Program-made: the position numbers and the translations under genes
Source of the DNA: Arenimonas terrae
GTDB lineage: Bacteria > Pseudomonadota > Gammaproteobacteria > Xanthomonadales > Xanthomonadaceae
NCBI RefSeq assembly: GCF_006265115.1
Contig: NZ_SMDR01000001.1
Span: 744,001-808,000, forward strand
DNA: 64,000 bases
Reading direction: 5' to 3'
The notes under the pieces: generated by a model
What the model was told of the DNA's origin: nothing
Databases searched by the model: none
What the model saw: the letters and a program-made list of their open reading frames with translations, nothing else
Shown here: positions 17,083-25,463 of the stretch, one piece after another
How the letters are laid out: each line of letters opens with the position of its first letter
How positions within the stretch are numbered: the first letter of the stretch is position 1

Positions 17083-18375
17083 TCAGCCTCTCGCCGCGTC
17101 CAGACGCCTGCGCAGCAGGTCCAGGCCCAGCGCGGCGTCGCCGCCGGGCGAGACCCGCGCCGCGAGGCTGGCGGCCGGATCGGCGCCCGCTGCCGGCAAC
17201 GGGTCACTGGCGGCCAGTTTGTAGGCCTCGCGGAACGGCAGGCCCGAGCGCGCCAGCTCGATCGCGCGGTCGGTGGAATACATGCCGTCGTCGAAGGCAG
17301 CCGCCAGTTTCTCCGGCCGCCACTGCAGCCCGCGCAGCAGCGCCGGCAGCAGGGCCAGCGCGCCCAGGCCCTTGCCGAAGGCGTGGAAGAGCGAGCCCTT
17401 CGAATACTGCAGGTCGCGGTGGTAGCCCGAAGGCAGCGACAGCAGCTGCTCGAGCTCGACCCGCGCCGCCGACACGCAGGCATAGGTGCCGCGCATCAGC
17501 TCCACCAGGTCCGGGTTGCGCTTGTTCGGCATGATCGAGGAGCCGGTGGTGTACTGCGCCGGCAACTGCACGAAGCCGAATTCGGACGTGGTGAACAGGC
17601 TCAGGTCCCAGGCCAGGCGGCGCAGGTCCAGCAGGGCGGCGCCGAGCGCGTCGATGGCGCCGATCTCGAACTTGCCGCGCGAGAGCTGGGCGTAGATCGG
17701 GCTGACCTGCAGGCGCGCGAAGCCGAGTTCGGCGGTGGTGAAGTCGCGGTCCAGCGGCAGGTTGACGCCGTAACCGGCGGCGGTGCCGAGCGGATTGGCG
17801 TCCACCCAGTCGCCGGCCTGGGCGGCGCGCACGGCGTTGTCGATGAAAGCTTCGGCGAAACCGGCCCACCACATCGCGGTGGACGACACCACCGCGCGCT
17901 GCAGGTGGGTGTAGCCGGGCATCGGCAGGCGCTCGGATTCGGCGCGGGCAAGACAGGCCCCGGCGGTTTCCAGGCAGAGCGCGCGCAGCTCGCCCAGGCG
18001 CTGCTTCAGCCACAGGCGGGTGGCGACCAGGATCTGGTCGTTGCGGCTGCGGCCGGTGTGGATCTTGCGGCCGGTGTCGCCCAGGCGTTCGACCAGGCGC
18101 GATTCGATCGCGGAATGGCAGTCCTCGAAGCGGTCGTCCAGCACGAAGGCGCCGCTGGCGACGTCGGCCGCCAGCGCGTCGAGCTCGCGGCAGAGGCCGT
18201 CACATTCCTCCGCCGTCAGCAGGCCGATGCGCGCCAAGCCGCGGGCATGGGCGCGGCTGGCGACGATGTCGTGGGCGATGAACTCGCGGTCCAGCACCAC
18301 GTCGTCGCCGGCCAGGAAGGCCTGGATGCGCGCGTCCACCTCGACGCCGGGTTTCTGCCACAGCAGGTCGCTCAT
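17083..18375 (-). CDS. argH: Argininosuccinate lyase
   Basis: A 430-residue member of the fumarase/aspartase superfamily that splits argininosuccinate into arginine and fumarate, the last arginine step. It carries the signature [12 protein letters not shown], the HTGRSRNDQ substrate loop and the GYTHLQRA motif containing the catalytic His. Slightly shorter than the E. coli enzyme (457). It is the last gene of the arg operon here; its ATG overlaps the argC stop. Confidence 0.97.
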
Positions 18376-19322
18376 GCGGGGATTCCCATCGTTTCCGGCA
18401 GGCCGAAGGCCAGGTTGAGGTTCTGCAGGGCCTGGGTCGCGGCGCCCTTGAGCAGGTTGTCGAGCGTGGACACGACCACCAGGCGCCGGCCGTCGGCCGC
18501 CAGCGTGAAGCCGCCCACCTCGGCGTGGTGCCTGCCGGCGATGCGGCTGACCCAGGGCGTGTCGCCGGTCACTTCCACCAGCGGCTCGGCGCCGTAGGCC
18601 GCGTAGTAGCGGCCGCGCACCTCGTCGAGGTCGAACGGCCGGGACAGGTGCAGGTTAGCCGTGAGCGTGATGCCGCGGAAATGCGCCGCCACGTGCGGCA
18701 TGAACTCGACGGGCAGGCCCAACCGGCGCGTCACTTCGCGTTCGTGCACGTGGCCGGTGAGCGAGTACGGCATCAGGTTGTCGCGCAGCTTGTCGGGATC
18801 GTTCTTGTCGGACGGACTGGTGCCGGCGCCCGAATAGCCCGACACGCCGAAACACTGCACCGGCCCGGCCAGGACATCGTGCATCGGCGCGATGGCGACC
18901 TGCATGGCGGTGGCGTAGCAGCCGGGATTGCTGATGCGGCGTTTGCCCGCAGCGTCCGCGCGGGTCAGCTCGGGCAGGCCGTAATGCCAGCCGTCATCGA
19001 AGCGGTAATCCGCCGACAGGTCGACGACGACCGTTGCCGGCGCCCGCGCGTCCACCTGGGCGACGAAGGGCGCCGCCATGGCGTTGGGCAGGGCCAGCAC
19101 CAGGGCGTCGGCGCCCTGCCCTGCGGCCGCTTCGGCGTCGAGGTTGGTGTAGCGCAGGTCGCCGGCATAGGACGGCTCGTGGTCGGCCAGGCGCTGGCCG
19201 TCGCGCTCGCGGGACGACACGAAGGCCAGTTCGAAACGCGGGTGCGCCGCGACCAGCCGGATCAGTTCGGCGCCGACATGGCCGCGCGCACCGACCAGCC
19301 CCAGGGAAATCTTCGCGGTCAC
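18372..19322 (-). CDS. argC: N-acetyl-gamma-glutamyl-phosphate reductase
   Basis: A 316-residue NADPH-dependent reductase making N-acetylglutamate semialdehyde. The Rossmann motif [16 protein letters not shown] opens the protein, the catalytic Cys lies in [10 protein letters not shown], and HxPE-type substrate residues follow in the GHVHEREV region. The start is GTG at 19322, overlapping the stop of the upstream acetyltransferase gene as GTGA; the frame is open 18 codons further but these overlap the neighbour. Length is within the range of the short ArgC class. Confidence 0.95.
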
Positions 19323-19924
19323 GCCGAGGCTCCGTGGTCGAGTTTGTAGTCGAGGTGGCGGCGCACCGTCGGCCATTCGTTGTCGAGGATGGAATACACC
19401 ACCGTGTCGCGCAGATGCCCGTCGGGCATGCGCATCTGCCGGCGCAGGATGCCGTCGAAGTGCGCGCCCAGCCGTTCAATGGCGGCACGCGAGCGATGGT
19501 TGAAGGCGTGGGTGCGGAACTCCACCACGGTGCAGCCCATCGCGTCGAAGGCGTGGCCGAGCAGCAGGCGCTTGGCCTCGGTGTTGAGCGCGCTGCGCTG
19601 GACCCGCGCCGAATACCAGGTGTAGCCGATCTCCAGGCCGGGGATCACCGGGTCCATGCGGAAGTAGCGCGTGCAGCCCACCGGCTCGCCGGCGGCATTG
19701 CGCACCAGGAAGGGCATGGCGGTCCCCGCTTCGCGGTCGGCGAGGGCCTTCGCGACATAGGGACGCACCGTCTCCGGCCCCGGCACCGAGGTGTACCAGA
19801 GATTCCAGAGCTCGCCGTCGGACGCCGCCAGCAGCAGGTCTTCGACATGCTCCTTCTGCAGCGGCTCCAGGCTGACGTGCACGCCCTGGAGCATGGGCGG
19901 GATGGACCAGTGCAGGTTGTTCAT
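19319..19924 (-). CDS. GNAT family N-acetyltransferase in the arg operon
   Basis: A 201-residue RimJ/RimL-like acetyltransferase (GNAT fold). Typical parts are the opening [16 protein letters not shown], the central [10 protein letters not shown] and [21 protein letters not shown] strands that hold acetyl-CoA, and a C-terminal [14 protein letters not shown]. It lies between the acetylglutamate synthase-kinase and argC with a 4-bp gap and a 4-bp overlap, so it is cotranscribed. Its substrate is unknown. Acetylglutamate synthesis is already covered by the fused gene upstream, so this is more likely a protein or small-molecule acetyltransferase. Confidence 0.8.
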
Positions 19925-19928
19925 TCGC

Positions 19929-21228
<1,300 letters not shown>

Positions 21229-21236
<8 letters not shown>

Positions 21237-21345
21237 GGTGAGCGTCGGCGTGGCAGGTGTGTCCCGGAAGTGCCCTCCGGGAAAATTCCAGTTGGCCCGC
21301 GGCGAGCGCGGGGGCGGTTTGGGCGATCAGGCTGAGGTCGTTCAC
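21229..21345 (-). CDS. Possible 38-codon ORF between the deacetylase gene and argB
   Basis: The 105-bp gap between the deacetylase and argB holds an ORF that starts with GTG overlapping the deacetylase stop (GTGA) and ends 7 bases inside argB. The first 20 codons ([20 protein letters not shown]) have the strong G/C third-position bias of real genes here; the last third does not and contains odd codons such as TTT, CTT and GGA. It could be a tiny coupled peptide, the remnant of a longer protein, or merely a translational bridge. No function is claimed. Confidence 0.3.
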
Positions 21346-22439
21346 GTAGCCTCCAGGAGTCGGCGGTAGGTGGCGGAAACGGTGGCGAGCTGGTCCAGCG
21401 AAACCCATTCGTCGGCGGTGTGGGCCTGGGCGATGTCGCCGGGGCCGAACACCAGTGCGGTCAGTCCGGCCTGCGAGAACAGCGAGGCCTCGGTCCAGAA
21501 ATCCACGGCGTTGCCGATCGGCATGCCCAGATCGTCGGCAAGGTCGCGCGCCGTGAGCCGACGCTCCTCGGCCCGCGCCACGTCGCCCGAGGGCAGCGAC
21601 GGGCCGCTGAAGGTTTCCTCGTACGACGCCAGCAGGCCCGCCGGCGCGAAACTCCGGAAGATCTCGTGCAGCGTCTCCAGCGACTGCGAGGGCAGCGGCC
21701 GGAAGCCGAAACGCAGTTCGGCGCTCGGCGCGATCATGTTGGCCTTGATGCCGCCCTCGACCCGGCCGATGTTGAAACGCAGCCCGGTCAGGCCGCCGAA
21801 ACGCAGGTGGTCCTGGGCCTCGACGAAGTCCATGGCTCGGCCGCCCCAGCGCACGGCGGCATGCAGGGCGCTGGTGTCGCGCGCCTGCTGGCCCGAGGCG
21901 TGGCCGGCCTCGCCGCGGAAACGCATCAGCACCGAGCTGATGCCGCGGTGCGCCAGCACCGCCTGGCCCATGGTCGGTTCGGCGACGATGGCCTCCTCGA
22001 AGCCGTGGTCCGAGGCCAGGAAGGCCGCGATGCAGCGCGCGTCGTTGGCTTCCTCGTCGGTGGTGAACAGGAAGGCGACGTCCCCCTTGCTGACCTTGGC
22101 CGCCGCGACCAGCGCCGCGGCGGCGCCCTTGATGTCGCAGGCGCCCAGCGCGATGGCCTTGTCGGCCGTGACCCGCAGCCGGTGCGGATCGGCGCTCCAG
22201 GCCGGCGACGACGGCACCGTGTCGAGATGCACGTTGAAGACGCGTTTCGGTTCACCCCGCACCGCCAGCATCGACACCGCACCGGCGCCGTGGTCGGTCA
22301 CCGTGATTCGGAAATCCGGCAGCTGCGCGCGCAGGTAGTCGAAGATGCCGCCCGTGCCGATGTCGCGCGGCGGGTTGCGGGTGTCGAAGGACACCAGCGC
22401 TTCCAGGTGTTTCAGGACTTCGGGCAGCAGATCGCTCAT
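21342..22439 (-). CDS. argE: N-acetylcitrulline deacetylase (ArgE-type, M20 family)
   Basis: A 365-residue M20 metallopeptidase-family deacylase. Metal-ligand blocks are visible: NVHLDTVP (His, Asp), GACDIKGAAAAL, TTDEEANDARC (catalytic and ligand Glu), and a late His in GPGDIAQAHTADEWV. In an operon with an acetylornithine carbamoyltransferase the substrate should be N-acetyl-L-citrulline, giving citrulline for ArgG, as described for Xanthomonas; this is inferred from the neighbourhood, since sequence alone would say acetylornithine deacetylase-like. It starts two bases past the argG stop (one-base gap) and overlaps the small ORF downstream. Confidence 0.9.
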   Translation of the reverse strand: MSDLLPEVLKHLEALVSFDTRNPPRDIGTGGIFDYLRAQLPDFRITVTDHGAGAVSMLAVRGEPKRVFNVHLDTVPSSPAWSADPHRLRVTADKAIALGACDIKGAAAALVAAAKVSKGDVAFLFTTDEEANDARCIAAFLASDHGFEEAIVAEPTMGQAVLAHRGISSVLMRFRGEAGHASGQQARDTSALHAAVRWGGRAMDFVEAQDHLRFGGLTGLRFNIGRVEGGIKANMIAPSAELRFGFRPLPSQSLETLHEIFRSFAPAGLLASYEETFSGPSLPSGDVARAEERRLTARDLADDLGMPIGNAVDFWTEASLFSQAGLTALVFGPGDIAQAHTADEWVSLDQLATVSATYRRLLEAT

Positions 22440-22440
22440 G

Positions 22441-23643
22441 TCAGGCCTTCCGGTTCACTTCGGCCCAGAGCGTGCTGCTCATGCCGTACAGGCGGATGAA
22501 ACCCTCGGCTTCGGGCACGCCCCAGTCAGCCGACTGGGCATAAGTCGCGCCCTTGGCGTTGAGGATGTGCGGCGAGCGCACCGCCACGGCGCCGACGCTG
22601 CCGCCCTGGGTCTCGATCACCACCTCGCCGTTGACGGTGGCCTGGCTGGAGGCCAGGAAGGCTTCGAGGTCGGTCTTGAGCGGATCGTTGTAGAAGCCCT
22701 CGTAGACCAGTTCGACCCACTTGCGCGCCACCTCGGGCTTGAAGCGGTTCTGGTGCTTGGTCAGCACGGCCTCTTCCAGCGCGCGGTGCGCCGTGAGCAG
22801 CGCGGCGAGGCCCGGGGCTTCGAAGATGATGCGGCCCTTGAGGCCGATCGTCGTATCGCCGGTGTACAGGCCGCGACCGACACCGTACTTCGAGAACAGG
22901 CCATTGAGCCTGGCCAACAGTGCGGCACCTGGCATGGCAACGCCGTCCAGCGCCACCGCCTCGCCCTGCCGGAAGGTGATCGTCGCGCGCAGCGGCGCGA
23001 CCGGCCATTCGGCGCGCGGCGCGCACCAGCCGCGGGCGCCTTCGCCCGGCGCTTCCCAGCGGTCGATCTCGCCGCCGGACATGGTCAGGCCAAGCAGGTT
23101 CTCGTTGATGGTGTAGGCCTTCTGCTTGGCGCGCACGCCGAAGCCGCGCTCCTCCAGGTAGGTCTGCTCGTAGGCGCGGGTCTGGTTGTGTTCCTTCTGG
23201 ATCTCGCGGATGGGCGCGACGATCTGGTAGTCGCCCGCTGCCTTCACCGCCAGGTCGAAACGCACCTGGTCGTTGCCCATGCCGGTGCAGCCGTGCGCGA
23301 TCGCGTTCGTGCCGATCTCGGCCGCACGCTTCAGGGCCGCGTCCACGATCAGGTACCGGTCCGACACCAGCAGCGGGTACTGGCCCTGGTAACCCTCGCC
23401 CGCCATCACGAAGGGTTTGACGAAGCCGTCCCAGATGGCCGGGCCACCGTCAACGGTGACGTGGCTGGCGGCGCCGAGTTCGGCGGCGCGCTGCTCGATG
23501 TAGGCGCGCTCCTCGGCATCCACGCCGCCGGTATCGGCGAACACGGTGTGCACGGCCCAGCCGCGCTCCTGCAGCCAGGGAATGCAGAAGCTGGTGTCGA
23601 GGCCGCCGGAGAAGGCGAGGACGATGTCTTTCTTGTCGGTCAT
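22441..23643 (-). CDS. argG: Argininosuccinate synthase
   Basis: A 400-residue enzyme that joins citrulline and aspartate using ATP. The PP-loop ATP motif AFSGGLDTS is at residues 10-18, followed by conserved blocks [15 protein letters not shown] and [11 protein letters not shown], and [10 protein letters not shown] near the C terminus. The gene lies 19 bp after the carbamoyltransferase stop and one base before the deacetylase start, in the order expected for the acetylcitrulline route. Confidence 0.96.
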
Positions 23644-23662: not shown

Positions 23663-24667
23663 TCATTGGTTCGCGAGCGCGGCCATCACCGCTTTCTGCA
23701 CATGCAGGCGGTTTTCGGCTTCCTCGATGGCGATGCAGTAGGGCGCGTCCATCACGCCGTCGGTGGCCTTGACGTTGCGGCGCAGCGGCAGGCAGTGGCT
23801 GAAGACGCCGCTGTTGGTCAGGGCCATCTTGGCCTCGTCGACGATGAAGTGCTTGTGCGCGTCCCGGATGGGCTTTTCCTGGTCCCAGCGGCCGAAGTAC
23901 GGGATCGCACCCCAGCTCTTGGCGTAGACGACGTCGGCGCCGGTGTAGGCCTCGGCGATGTCGTGGCTCATGCGGAAGCTGCCGCCGGACTCGGCGACGT
24001 TGTCGCGGGCCCAGCCCAGGTAGCGCTCGTCCAGCGCGTATTCCGGCGTCGGGCACAGCAGGGTCACGTCCATACCCATGCGCGTGGCAATCGTGAGCGC
24101 CGAGTTCGCCACCGCGGTGTTGAGCGGCTTGGGGTGGTAGGTCCAGGTCAGCACGAACTTCCTGCCGCGCAGGTCGGTGGTCTTGAAGTGCTCCTGCAGC
24201 GCCAGCGCGTGCGCCAGCTCCTGGCAGGGATGGGTGATGGTCTCGAGGTTGATGACGGGCACCGTCGAGTACTTCGCGAAGGACTTGAGCACCCGGTCCT
24301 CGCGGTCCACCGACCAGTCCTGGAACTTCGGGAAAGCCCGGACCGCCACCAGATCCACGTAACGCGACAGCACCCGGGCGACCTCGGCGATGTGCTCCTC
24401 GGCCTCGCCGTCCATCACCGATCCGACGTTGAACTCGATCGGCCACGCGTCCTTGCCGGGCTGCAGCACCACGGCATGGCCGCCCAGCTGGAACGCACCC
24501 AGCTCGAAACTGGTGCGGGTCCGCAGCGAGGGATTGAAGAACACCAGGGCGATGGACTTGCCCTTGAGCTGGTCGCCGGCCTTGCTGCCCTTGAAGGCGG
24601 CGGCCTGGGCCAGGACGGCGTCGAGCTCGGCGCGGGTCCAGTCCTGGGTGTTGAGGAAGTGCTTCAT
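23663..24667 (-). CDS. argF': N-acetylornithine carbamoyltransferase
   Basis: A 334-residue transcarbamylase that makes N-acetylcitrulline from N-acetylornithine and carbamoyl phosphate. The carbamoyl-phosphate loop [13 protein letters not shown], the [10 protein letters not shown] motif and [10 protein letters not shown] are present. A Glu at residue 90, in [10 protein letters not shown], corresponds to the specificity Glu (residue 92) of the Xanthomonas acetylornithine enzyme, and the long [19 protein letters not shown] loop is also that of AOTCase rather than OTCase. Length is close to the 339 residues of the Xanthomonas protein. ATG at 24667 is used; the open frame further upstream runs through the leader terminator and is not coding. 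Confidence 0.95.
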
Positions 24668-24691
24668 TCGTCGGCCCTTTGAAAAATCCAC

Positions 24692-24725
24692 AAAACAAAA
24701 AAGCCCAGCGCGAGGCTGGGCTTTT
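24692..24725 (-). terminator. Leader terminator / attenuator of the arg operon
   Basis: On the minus strand an 11-bp stem AAAAGCCCAGC / GCTGGGCTTTT with loop CTCGC is followed by TTGTTTTG, a normal intrinsic terminator. It ends about 25 bases before the first arg gene, and there is no other gene for it to terminate except the 34-codon leader ORF. Its 5' arm together with the preceding CCGG (24715-24729) can instead pair with 24748-24761 (GCTGGGT, AAA, CCGG), which would prevent the terminator from forming. Confidence 0.85.
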
Positions 24726-24752
24726 CCGGTGTACAAGCGATGACGTCCCGGT

Positions 24753-24857
24753 TTACCCAGCTGGCGTGTGGGGTTCCGGTCGGCGCGCGCGCGAGGTCAT
24801 ACCCGCCGCCATATAGGCGGAGGTGAGGACGTCGGCGCTGGCGCAGGTCAGGTTCAT
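24753..24857 (-). CDS. Predicted arginine leader peptide
   Basis: A 34-codon ORF (ATG 24857, TAA at 24755-24753) in the leader of the arginine operon. Residues 21-28 read TSRARRPE, so three of four consecutive positions (23, 25, 26; codons CGC, CGC, CGA) are arginine. The codons immediately after them contain CCGGAACCC, the first of three competing pairing elements, and the last codons and stop contain the second. A ribosome stalled at the Arg codons would cover element 1 and leave element 2 free to block the terminator. There is no Shine-Dalgarno; the predicted transcription start is only a base or two before the ATG. Internal ATGs at residues 16 and 20 are other possible starts. Confidence 0.72.
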   Translation of the reverse strand: MNLTCASADVLTSAYMAAGMTSRARRPEPHTPAG

Positions 24858-24866
24858 TCGGGGGGC

Positions 24867-24895
24867 AGTATGCCGGCCGGGGCGGCCGGCCGCAA
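24867..24895 (-). promoter_or_regulatory. Promoter of the arg operon
   Basis: On the minus strand TTGCGG (24895-24890) and CATACT (24872-24867) are spaced by exactly 17 bases. The spacer and -10 edge contain the inverted repeat CGGCCGG-CCGCC-CCGGCCG, which might bind a regulator or may only reflect base composition. The promoter begins directly after the stop codon of the upstream glycine-zipper gene. Predicted initiation near 24858-24860 puts the leader ATG almost at the 5' end of the RNA. Confidence 0.7.
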
Positions 24896-24896
24896 C

Positions 24897-25463
24897 TCAG
24901 CGCGAGCCCACGCCGCCGTCATCGGGCGTCACCGAGACCCGGATCCGCAGGCGGTTGCCGGGATCGTAGGGCAGGCGCGACATGTACTTCTCGCCCTTGT
25001 ACATGTATTCGACGTCGTAGCCGACCACCTGGCGCTCCTCGCGTTCGACCTCGACCAGGGTGCAGCCCCGGGCCTCGGCCTCGGCCCGCCGCTGGGCGAT
25101 GTTGTGGCCCACCATGCCGCCGGCGACCGCGCCGGCGACCGTGGCGGCCTTGCGGCCGTCGCCCTTGCCGACCTGGTTGCCCAGGGCGGCACCGACGATG
25201 GCGCCGATGACGGTGCCGCCGGTGGTCTTGCCCGACTGCCGGTATTCAGTGTCGCTGCAGCGCTCTTCCGGGACCCGGGTGCGCACCGTCTCGAAGACCT
25301 CGTCTGCCCGCAGGACCTGGGCGTAGCCGTAGCTGACGTTTTCGGGGACCGGGGCGTCGTAGTAGCCGGGGTCCTGTTCGTATGGATCCTGGCCGTACTG
25401 GGCGAGCGCCGGACCGGCGGCGACCAGCAGGAGCAGCGGCAGGATGCGGTTGGCAGCAGTCAT
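24897..25463 (-). CDS. Glycine-zipper 2TM domain envelope protein
   Basis: A 188-residue exported protein with signal peptide (MTAANRILPLLLLVAAGPALA). The mature N terminus is Tyr/Asp/Pro-rich. The centre (about 95-140) is a glycine zipper: GGTVIGAIVGAALGNQVG and ATVAGAVAGGMVGHNIA, as in 17-kDa surface antigen/SlyB-type proteins. A polar C-terminal domain follows (VEREERQVVGYDVEY). The ATG has GGAGA before it. No lipobox is visible, so it is predicted periplasmic or membrane-inserted through the zipper. Specific role unknown. Confidence 0.82.
   Translation of the reverse strand: MTAANRILPLLLLVAAGPALAQYGQDPYEQDPGYYDAPVPENVSYGYAQVLRADEVFETVRTRVPEERCSDTEYRQSGKTTGGTVIGAIVGAALGNQVGKGDGRKAATVAGAVAGGMVGHNIAQRRAEAEARGCTLVEVEREERQVVGYDVEYMYKGEKYMSRLPYDPGNRLRIRVSVTPDDGGVGSR

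Follow-up and report, generated by a model that had tools for sequence, protein, structure and literature searches.

The arginine biosynthetic operon of Arenimonas terrae that starts at argF' is, with a probability that we put at about 85%, controlled by an arginine-specific ribosome-mediated transcription attenuator. The window, a stretch of 64,000 nucleotides of contig NZ_SMDR01000001.1, carries this operon on its minus strand, and all coordinates given here count from the first letter of the window. The leader in front of the operon encodes a short peptide with the motif SRARR, which probably lets these bacteria sense arginine through the speed of the ribosome. The sequence comparisons behind this reading cover the ORF, its arginine codons and their spacing, the position of its stop codon, covariation in two mutually exclusive hairpins, the recurrence of arginine-rich leaders and the absence of the regulator ArgR.

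The operon consists of argF' (N-acetylornithine carbamoyltransferase, the first gene; 23663–24667, NCBIfam NF003384, 610.8 bits against a cut-off of 288), argG (argininosuccinate synthase; 22441–23643, NF003385 above cut-off), an acetylornithine deacetylase gene (21342–22439, NF006439 above cut-off), argB (acetylglutamate kinase of 435 amino acids; 19929–21236, NF003386 above cut-off), argC (18372–19376, with the start codon as mechanically listed; TIGR01850 above cut-off) and argH (17083–18375; TIGR00838 with 275.9 bits, 3.6 under the cut-off of 279.5), all on the minus strand. A GNAT-like ORF (19319–19924, minus strand), which matches a GNAT-containing model only below its cut-off, lies within the operon between argB and argC. 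The operon thus encodes arginine biosynthesis, and the codons of the leader specify its end product. Among the matches listed, the nearest argF' proteins are those of L249 (94.9% identity), L205 (Arenimonas sp., 94.0%) and L219 (Arenimonas oryziterrae, 88.3%).

A direct reading of the minus strand from 24900 to 24660 places every feature of the preliminary description where it had been located, from the promoter-like boxes to the T-rich tract. The -35-like box TTGCGG (24890–24895) and the -10-like box CATACT (24867–24872) are separated by a spacer of 17 nt. From the -10-like box, transcription is predicted to start at about 24860, 2–3 nt 5' of the leader ATG, making the leader nearly leaderless. 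The leader peptide ORF, MNLTCASADVLTSAYMAAGMTSRARRPEPHTPAG followed by a stop codon, comprises 34 codons (24753–24857; ATG at 24857, TAA at 24755–24753). Its conserved core, AAGMTSRARRP (24777–24809), contains three arginine control codons, namely residue 23 (CGC, 24789–24791), residue 25 (CGC, 24783–24785) and residue 26 (CGA, 24780–24782). Element 1, CCGGAACCC (CCGG AA CCC; 24771–24779), follows directly and is a possible protector. Element 2, GCTGGGTAAACCGG (24748–24761), has the core GCTGGGT at 24761–24755 and overlaps the stop codon. Element 3, CCGGAAAAGCCCAGC (24715–24729), with the core GCCCAGC at 24721–24715, is common to the antiterminator and the terminator. The terminator hairpin GAAAAGCCCAGC/GCTGGGCTTTTT spans 24698–24726, with element 4 as the 3' arm of the intrinsic terminator (24698–24709), and is accompanied by the T-rich tract at 24692–24702. 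As a whole, the leader folds more stably than most of its shuffled versions, 2 of 200 shuffles reaching the same energy or better (z -2.5).

In the 135 aligned relatives, positions -38 and -37 relative to the leader start are enriched in T (0.67 and 0.85 bits), and the -10 position is diffuse, with no hexamer scoring at least 5. No clear Shine-Dalgarno signal for the leader ORF was found in the aligned relatives, and the ORF seems to begin at the 5' end of the RNA. The gene directly upstream (24897–25400, minus strand) matches PRK11280, a hypothetical protein, with 88.2 bits against a cut-off of 99, and its stop codon, whose last base is 24897, is separated by 1 nt from the -35-like box of the leader.

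The leader ORF recurs in every upstream region compared within the window's own family and its sister family. argF' was found in 363 of the 397 genomes of the order (E 1e-60), and 136 upstream regions were taken from the 150 best argF' loci listed, the 14 omitted belonging to genera g3 and g8. This set comprises the family of the window (f1, the window included) and its sister family f12, which was matched to Rhodanobacter, Frateuria and Dokdonella records and most of whose genomes rank below the 150 listed. The motif SRARR occurs in a short ORF upstream of argF' in all 136, so that all three arginine codons are kept, and in 5/5 further f1 genomes, giving 141/141 with the genome of the window counted. 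Conservation of these codons in relatives had been proposed as a check on the attenuator, and it is complete. A terminator hairpin with a T-rich tail was likewise located in 136/136. Element 2, in the form of the motif [GA][CT][CT]GGG, is present in 128/136, starting 30–33 nt after the start of the serine codon of SRARR. The stop codon adjoins or overlaps element 2 in these 128, where covering by a ribosome corresponds to an assumed footprint: 108 have element 2 at +33 and the stop at +39, 18 have element 2 at +32 or +33 and the stop at +30, and 2 have element 2 at +30 and the stop at +36. Within the genome of the window, the search for a second leader copy returned a single exact match to the motif; with up to 3 mismatches it returned 55 matches, compared with 44 for the reversed pattern. 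Beyond the order, 3 of 274 genomes of the class had argF' (E 1e-90), all 3 of them of the window's family.

The two alternative hairpins expected of an attenuator, antiterminator 2:3 and terminator 3:4, are well supported by comparison. When G-U pairs count, 127 of the 136 leaders have a stretch complementary to the core of element 3 at 6/6 positions in their element 2 region, compared with a mean of 5.5 when the region is base-shuffled. In a MAFFT alignment of 67 sequences selected for diversity, the cells of 2:3 are paired in 95.7% (best slid control 53.1%), with a covariation of 0.173 that 1 of 500 shuffles reached, and those of 3:4 in 98.9% (best slid control 63.6%), with a covariation of 0.229 that none of 500 reached. 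The claim that the two pairings are mutually exclusive, and that 2:3 in particular should be conserved among relatives, therefore stands, since both are kept with covariation. For both helices, two of the five measures (pairs changed on both sides, further pair types) do not exceed the shuffles; double changes are limited to two pairs per helix, and the change in f12 is mostly that of one clade. The key base of elements 2, 3 and 4 reads T-A-T in 92 leaders, C-G-C in 28, T-G-C in 7 and C-A-T in 1, the motif being absent from the remaining 8.

Predicted folds, in which the ribosome footprints are assumed, show how the two hairpins may alternate. With a ribosome on the third arginine codon and before synthesis of arm 4, 2:3 is predicted in 127 of the 128 leaders with the motif, G106 being the sole genome without it. 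The unfiltered count of 135/136 for this stalled state includes the 8 leaders without the motif, in which element 3 pairs inside the free stretch. With a ribosome at the stop codon, 3:4 is predicted in 136/136. Once arm 4 exists, the fold of lowest energy contains the terminator in 125/136 even in the stalled state, and the mechanism would therefore depend on the order of synthesis, that is, on timing.

Element 1 is less well defined. The preliminary description had element 1 compete with element 3 for element 2; element 1 is indeed present at the position given for it, but conservation of the 1:2 pairing is not clear, as its cells are paired in 66.1% versus 64.8% when slid by one column. Both this percentage and the covariation lie above all 500 letter shuffles. 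Local 1:2 pairing is found in 127/128 leaders, yet also in about 99/128 in shuffles. In free RNA before arm 4 is made, element 2 is predicted to pair with element 3 in 70/128 and with upstream sequence in 55/128, so that untranslated RNA might read through.

This last property, together with the GC-richness of the leader, would also suit a switch with no amino-acid specificity, in which 2:3 forms in free RNA, any slowing of translation or absence of ribosomes is sensed and the arginine codons merely reflect GC-rich RNA. The remaining families of the order make such a switch very improbable. They provide 57 loci, 5 of them from family f11 (G011 and four others); G076, for which upstream sequence was lacking, and G055, whose gene is cut at the contig start, were left out. 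In f2 and f3, SRARR is retained in 9/10 loci, the listed ORF of G041 being without it. In the other families the peptides differ and the arginine clusters stay, in the form of RRRRR (f4), RRRR (f6), RRARRTRR and IRRRRRR (f7), VVVRRRRP (f8), LRRRRM (f9) and VVRRRPRPR (f10). At least 4 arginines per 8 codons of an ATG ORF occur in 29 of 45 regions outside f1 and f12, compared with a shuffle expectation of 2.0 and with 5 in antisense. When the ORF-and-terminator rule defined in the next paragraph is applied to each residue in 42 regions of f4–f10, clusters of at least 4 number 28 for arginine and 3 for the next residue, valine, which argues against a sensor indifferent to the amino acid.

We defined an outer leader as an ATG ORF with at least 3 arginines per 8 codons and a terminator 15–65 nt after its stop. 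This rule is passed by 43 of the 52 loci outside f11, the shuffle expectation being about 0.03; two of the 43, G041 and G072, have doubtful ORFs. By family, the counts are 3/3 in f2, 7/7 in f3, 3/3 in f4, 0/1 in f5, 2/2 in f6, 11/13 in f7, 7/7 in f8, 9/15 in f9 and 1/1 in f10, the failures thus being 6 loci of f9, 2 of f7 and the single locus of f5. Close to the end of the ORF, 16 of the 38 f2–f10 leaders have a significant complement of element 3, where 1.9 are expected; the other 22 have no significant element 2 by this simple complement test. In two f8 leaders the sequence of elements 2 and 3 differs (GCCAGG/CCTGG) but still pairs. Judged by these sequences, the arginine-rich leader recurs in most of the sampled families of the order, where ArgR is missing. 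The two f7 loci that fail, G056 and G070 (L302, L306), carry a CCCAGCC/GGCTGGG terminator before argF' and have no arginine-rich ATG ORF by the rule.

The choice of arginine codons points in the same direction. In f1 and f12, codons 1 and 2 are solely CGT or CGC (codon 1: CGT 77, CGC 59; codon 2: CGC 102, CGT 34), and codon 3 is CGA in 134/136, with CGC and CGG once each. CGG accordingly makes up 1 of 408 arginine control codons, as compared with 87 of the 955 arginine codons in the argF' genes of the 56 f1 genomes with enough sequence to serve as codon control, in which CGA occurs 3 times. In the 38 leaders of f2–f10, 46 of 161 arginine codons are CGA and 1 is CGG; the argF' genes of these families have 51 and 169 of 834. 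Enrichment of CGA and avoidance of CGG in both inner and outer leaders again speak against a sensor without amino-acid specificity. CGU, CGC and CGA are the codons read by the inosine-bearing tRNA-Arg, and the almost exclusive use of these three means that one tRNA species seems to be watched. The near-fixed CGA and the avoidance of CGG suggest that a single tRNA-Arg species is monitored.

The core peptide of f1 and f12 is, as the substitution pattern indicates, also under selection at the amino-acid level. Among 77 distinct sequences, codons -5 to +5, counted from the serine of SRARR, have an in-frame pN/pS of 0.118; the other two frames give 1.5 and 3.4, the five-codon flank before the core 0.74 and the flank of five codons behind it 0.99. 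No leader departs from Met -2, Ser 0 or Ala +2 (136/136), and Thr -1 is found in 135/136, although none of these residues reports arginine. As the core is selected in f1 and its closest relatives, stalling may be reinforced or tuned by the nascent chain. Carried further, this would amount to an arginine-tuned arrest peptide, in which the nascent chain ending in A[AS]GMTSRARR acts in the exit tunnel on the same RNA switch, with the stall dependent both on the sequence of the peptide and on arginine or Arg-tRNA. The low pN/pS of the core relative to both flanks, its fixed residues and the presence of only three arginine codons, where families lacking the motif have runs such as RRRR, would fit this reading. 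Against it, the families lacking the motif retain arginine clusters and terminator, so that the peptide is unnecessary for the basic design; the leader peptide has no match in NCBIfam and none in Pfam up to E 1, and its likeness to the arrest motifs, reportedly of the type RAPP and RAGP, is loose. We regard an arrest peptide as a serious possibility, though we lean against it. Equally tentative is the evolutionary version, namely that in f1, f12 and near kin the attenuator has turned into an arginine-tuned arrest peptide, A[AS]GMTSRARR with a slow CGA replacing the arginine runs. If so, a codon counter would have become a peptide-assisted sensor, with CGA read by the inosine tRNA-Arg.

Similarity among leader peptides is also seen elsewhere in the order. 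The f8 leader peptides (L289, L312, L314, L318, L319, L321, L328) are alike, with VVVRRRRPxxxMELFG in 4, VVxRRxRRxxxMPGC in 2 and VVVRRRPVNRHRIFG in 1. This resemblance means that a constraint on the peptide may have arisen more than once.

For the arginine-specific attenuator, which we prefer, we postulate the following sequence of events. Transcription would start 2–3 nt 5' of the leader AUG, and a ribosome would trail the polymerase through the leader. When the Arg-tRNA reading CGU, CGC and CGA is scarce, the ribosome would stall within SRARR, leaving element 2, which begins some 20 nt beyond the third arginine codon, free to pair with element 3 once this is made. Formation of 2:3 would preclude the terminator, and the operon would be read. 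When arginine is plentiful, the ribosome would reach the stop codon and cover element 2, so that 3:4 could pair and transcription would end at about 168 nt (hand count). Of this scheme, the arginine response, ribosome stalling and the act of termination are inferred.

Control by ArgR or by a T-box, with an ordinary intergenic terminator in front of argF', would be the conventional expectation, as ArgR is described as the usual arginine regulator in gammaproteobacteria in the part of the literature cited (PMC5343134) and arginine T-boxes are on record (PMC1262725, as excerpted). The chance of this is negligible. ArgR (PF01316) had no match in the genome of the window at E 0.001, the search that had been suggested to accompany the claim, and the same profile was positive in 9 of 14 control genomes. 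Across the order, 388 of 397 genomes are without a match at this threshold; the 9 matches are 8 genomes of f11 and one sub-cutoff match in f12, and we rejected ArgR control on these searches. A T-box covariance model match was sought in the leader and the window and was absent.

A leader and terminator within 260 nt before argF' are absent in 5/5 f11 loci, and G364, the f12 genome with the sub-cutoff ArgR match, has a leader. Among the loci examined, leader and ArgR thus appear largely to exclude each other. The f9 loci G009, G084, G089, G094 and G029 and the f5 locus G005 (stretches L288, L329, L330, L333, L335 and L280) have neither an arginine leader nor a terminator within 260 nt, and the f9 and f5 loci without leader have no ArgR match either. 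The arginine locus of f11 differs from that of the rest of the order. In 5/5 f11 genomes compared (L290, L324–L327), argR and the best argF' match (40–43% identity) share a contig and are about 1.2 kb apart.

The leader is homologous to a published RNA. It matches positions 1–124 of Rfam RF02242 (Xoo5) with 43.1 bits (E 8e-8 in a scan of 361 bases), below the gathering score of 50. At E<=0.1, 258 of 397 genomes of the order match RF02242, 84 of them above cut-off, compared with 0/14 control genomes; homology is therefore clear in spite of the score of the window's leader, and the matches sit just upstream of argF' in the relatives compared. At gathering score, the sole Rfam matches of the window were three tRNAs. 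Other families, rnk_pseudo and SorX among them, matched weakly, far under their gathering scores, and were rejected as terminator look-alikes. Xoo5 of Xanthomonas oryzae was found by cDNA cloning, 5' RACE and Northern blots, with a RACE-based size of 124 nt and growth-phase-dependent Northern bands of about 130 and 100 nt, according to the sections cited (PMC3039613). The words argF, arginine and leader have no occurrence in the main text of that paper (PMC3039613). It is catalogued as 'Xanthomonadaceae sRNA', and the Rfam model, unlike the leader described here, stops before element 3 and the terminator. Hand translation of the Rfam consensus yields an ORF ending GMTSRARRPESHIFAG. The model, too, is 124 nt long, so that its position 1, two bases upstream of the AUG, should be the 5' end, and the same start is predicted from the -10 box of the window. 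The cloned 3' end, as far as the published account gives it, falls short of the terminator: it lies about 20 nt past the end of the leader ORF, ahead of element 3. The terminated RNA predicted here, about 160 nt by hand count, is longer than both the clone and the Northern bands. Our guess is that the short 3' end results from trimming back to a hairpin. The RF02242 entry could be recast as a leader that regulates in cis and contains a coding ORF.

Taken at its annotation, Xoo5 would be a trans-acting sRNA or encode a trans-acting leader peptide, its position before argF' being incidental or secondary. The leader peptide peTrpL reportedly acts in trans and would be a precedent, and the core peptide is conserved. 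The sRNA annotation and the two growth-phase-dependent Northern bands, as far as the cited sections go (PMC3039613), are compatible with such a role. The genomic position of the motif is hard to reconcile with it: in a scan of named genomes with a loose pattern, 112 of the 120 matches listed have an argF'-like start within about 520 nt, and of the other 8, 3 precede argF' by inspection, 4 are cut by the stretch end and 1 is an apparent chance match. As the switch moreover covaries in cis, we consider action in trans improbable.

An arginine-specific attenuator would fill a gap among the amino acids with a classical attenuator in Proteobacteria and explain arginine control without ArgR in an order that includes Xanthomonas, Stenotrophomonas and Lysobacter. 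It would also re-file a published sRNA as an operon leader; should the arrest-peptide reading hold, Xoo5 would be the product of that system. The leader comes in two forms, an arginine run in the outer families and a fixed peptide with few arginine codons in the inner ones, and with these the passage from codon sensing to what may be peptide sensing can be tested directly.

The classical ribosome-mediated attenuators of Proteobacteria include the his, thr, trp, leu, ilv and phe leaders. With these, the leader of the window shares a short ORF with cognate codons, a stop codon placed at element 2, a 2:3 and a 3:4 hairpin that exclude each other, an intrinsic terminator and a biosynthetic operon downstream. 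It is unlike them in addressing arginine, in its nearly leaderless ORF, in having only three control codons in the window's family, in a core peptide conserved as protein, and in an element 1 that is a candidate protector. A paper from 2005 places histidine, threonine and phenylalanine under attenuators and arginine under T-boxes in other species, in the portion cited (PMC1262725). Two published leaders respond to arginine through arginine codons. The Salmonella speF leader orf34 senses arginine with Arg codons 12–13, Rho and RNase G, and resembles the leader described here in its arginine-coding ORF and conserved peptide domain; it differs in its output, ornithine decarboxylase, and in acting through Rho termination and RNase G decay instead of an intrinsic terminator, according to the sections cited (PMC6386406). 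The leader peptide of the window had no Pfam match up to E 1 to the orf34 family DUF2618 (PF10940). In the Staphylococcus aureus rbf leader rbfL, the ribosome likewise pauses at arginine codons under arginine limitation, but translation initiation of a biofilm regulator is blocked and the codons are AGA/AGG, read by tRNA-Arg(UCU), according to the part of the report cited (PMC13009471). The earlier statement that no leader peptide had been described for arginine is, with orf34 and rbfL in print, too broad in general and is limited to an intrinsic-terminator attenuator of an arginine biosynthetic operon: for such a system it held among the open-access papers searched. By its sequence, the leader would thus work in the mode of a classical attenuator with a candidate protector, and its arginine-specific form appears to be a new variant of that design.
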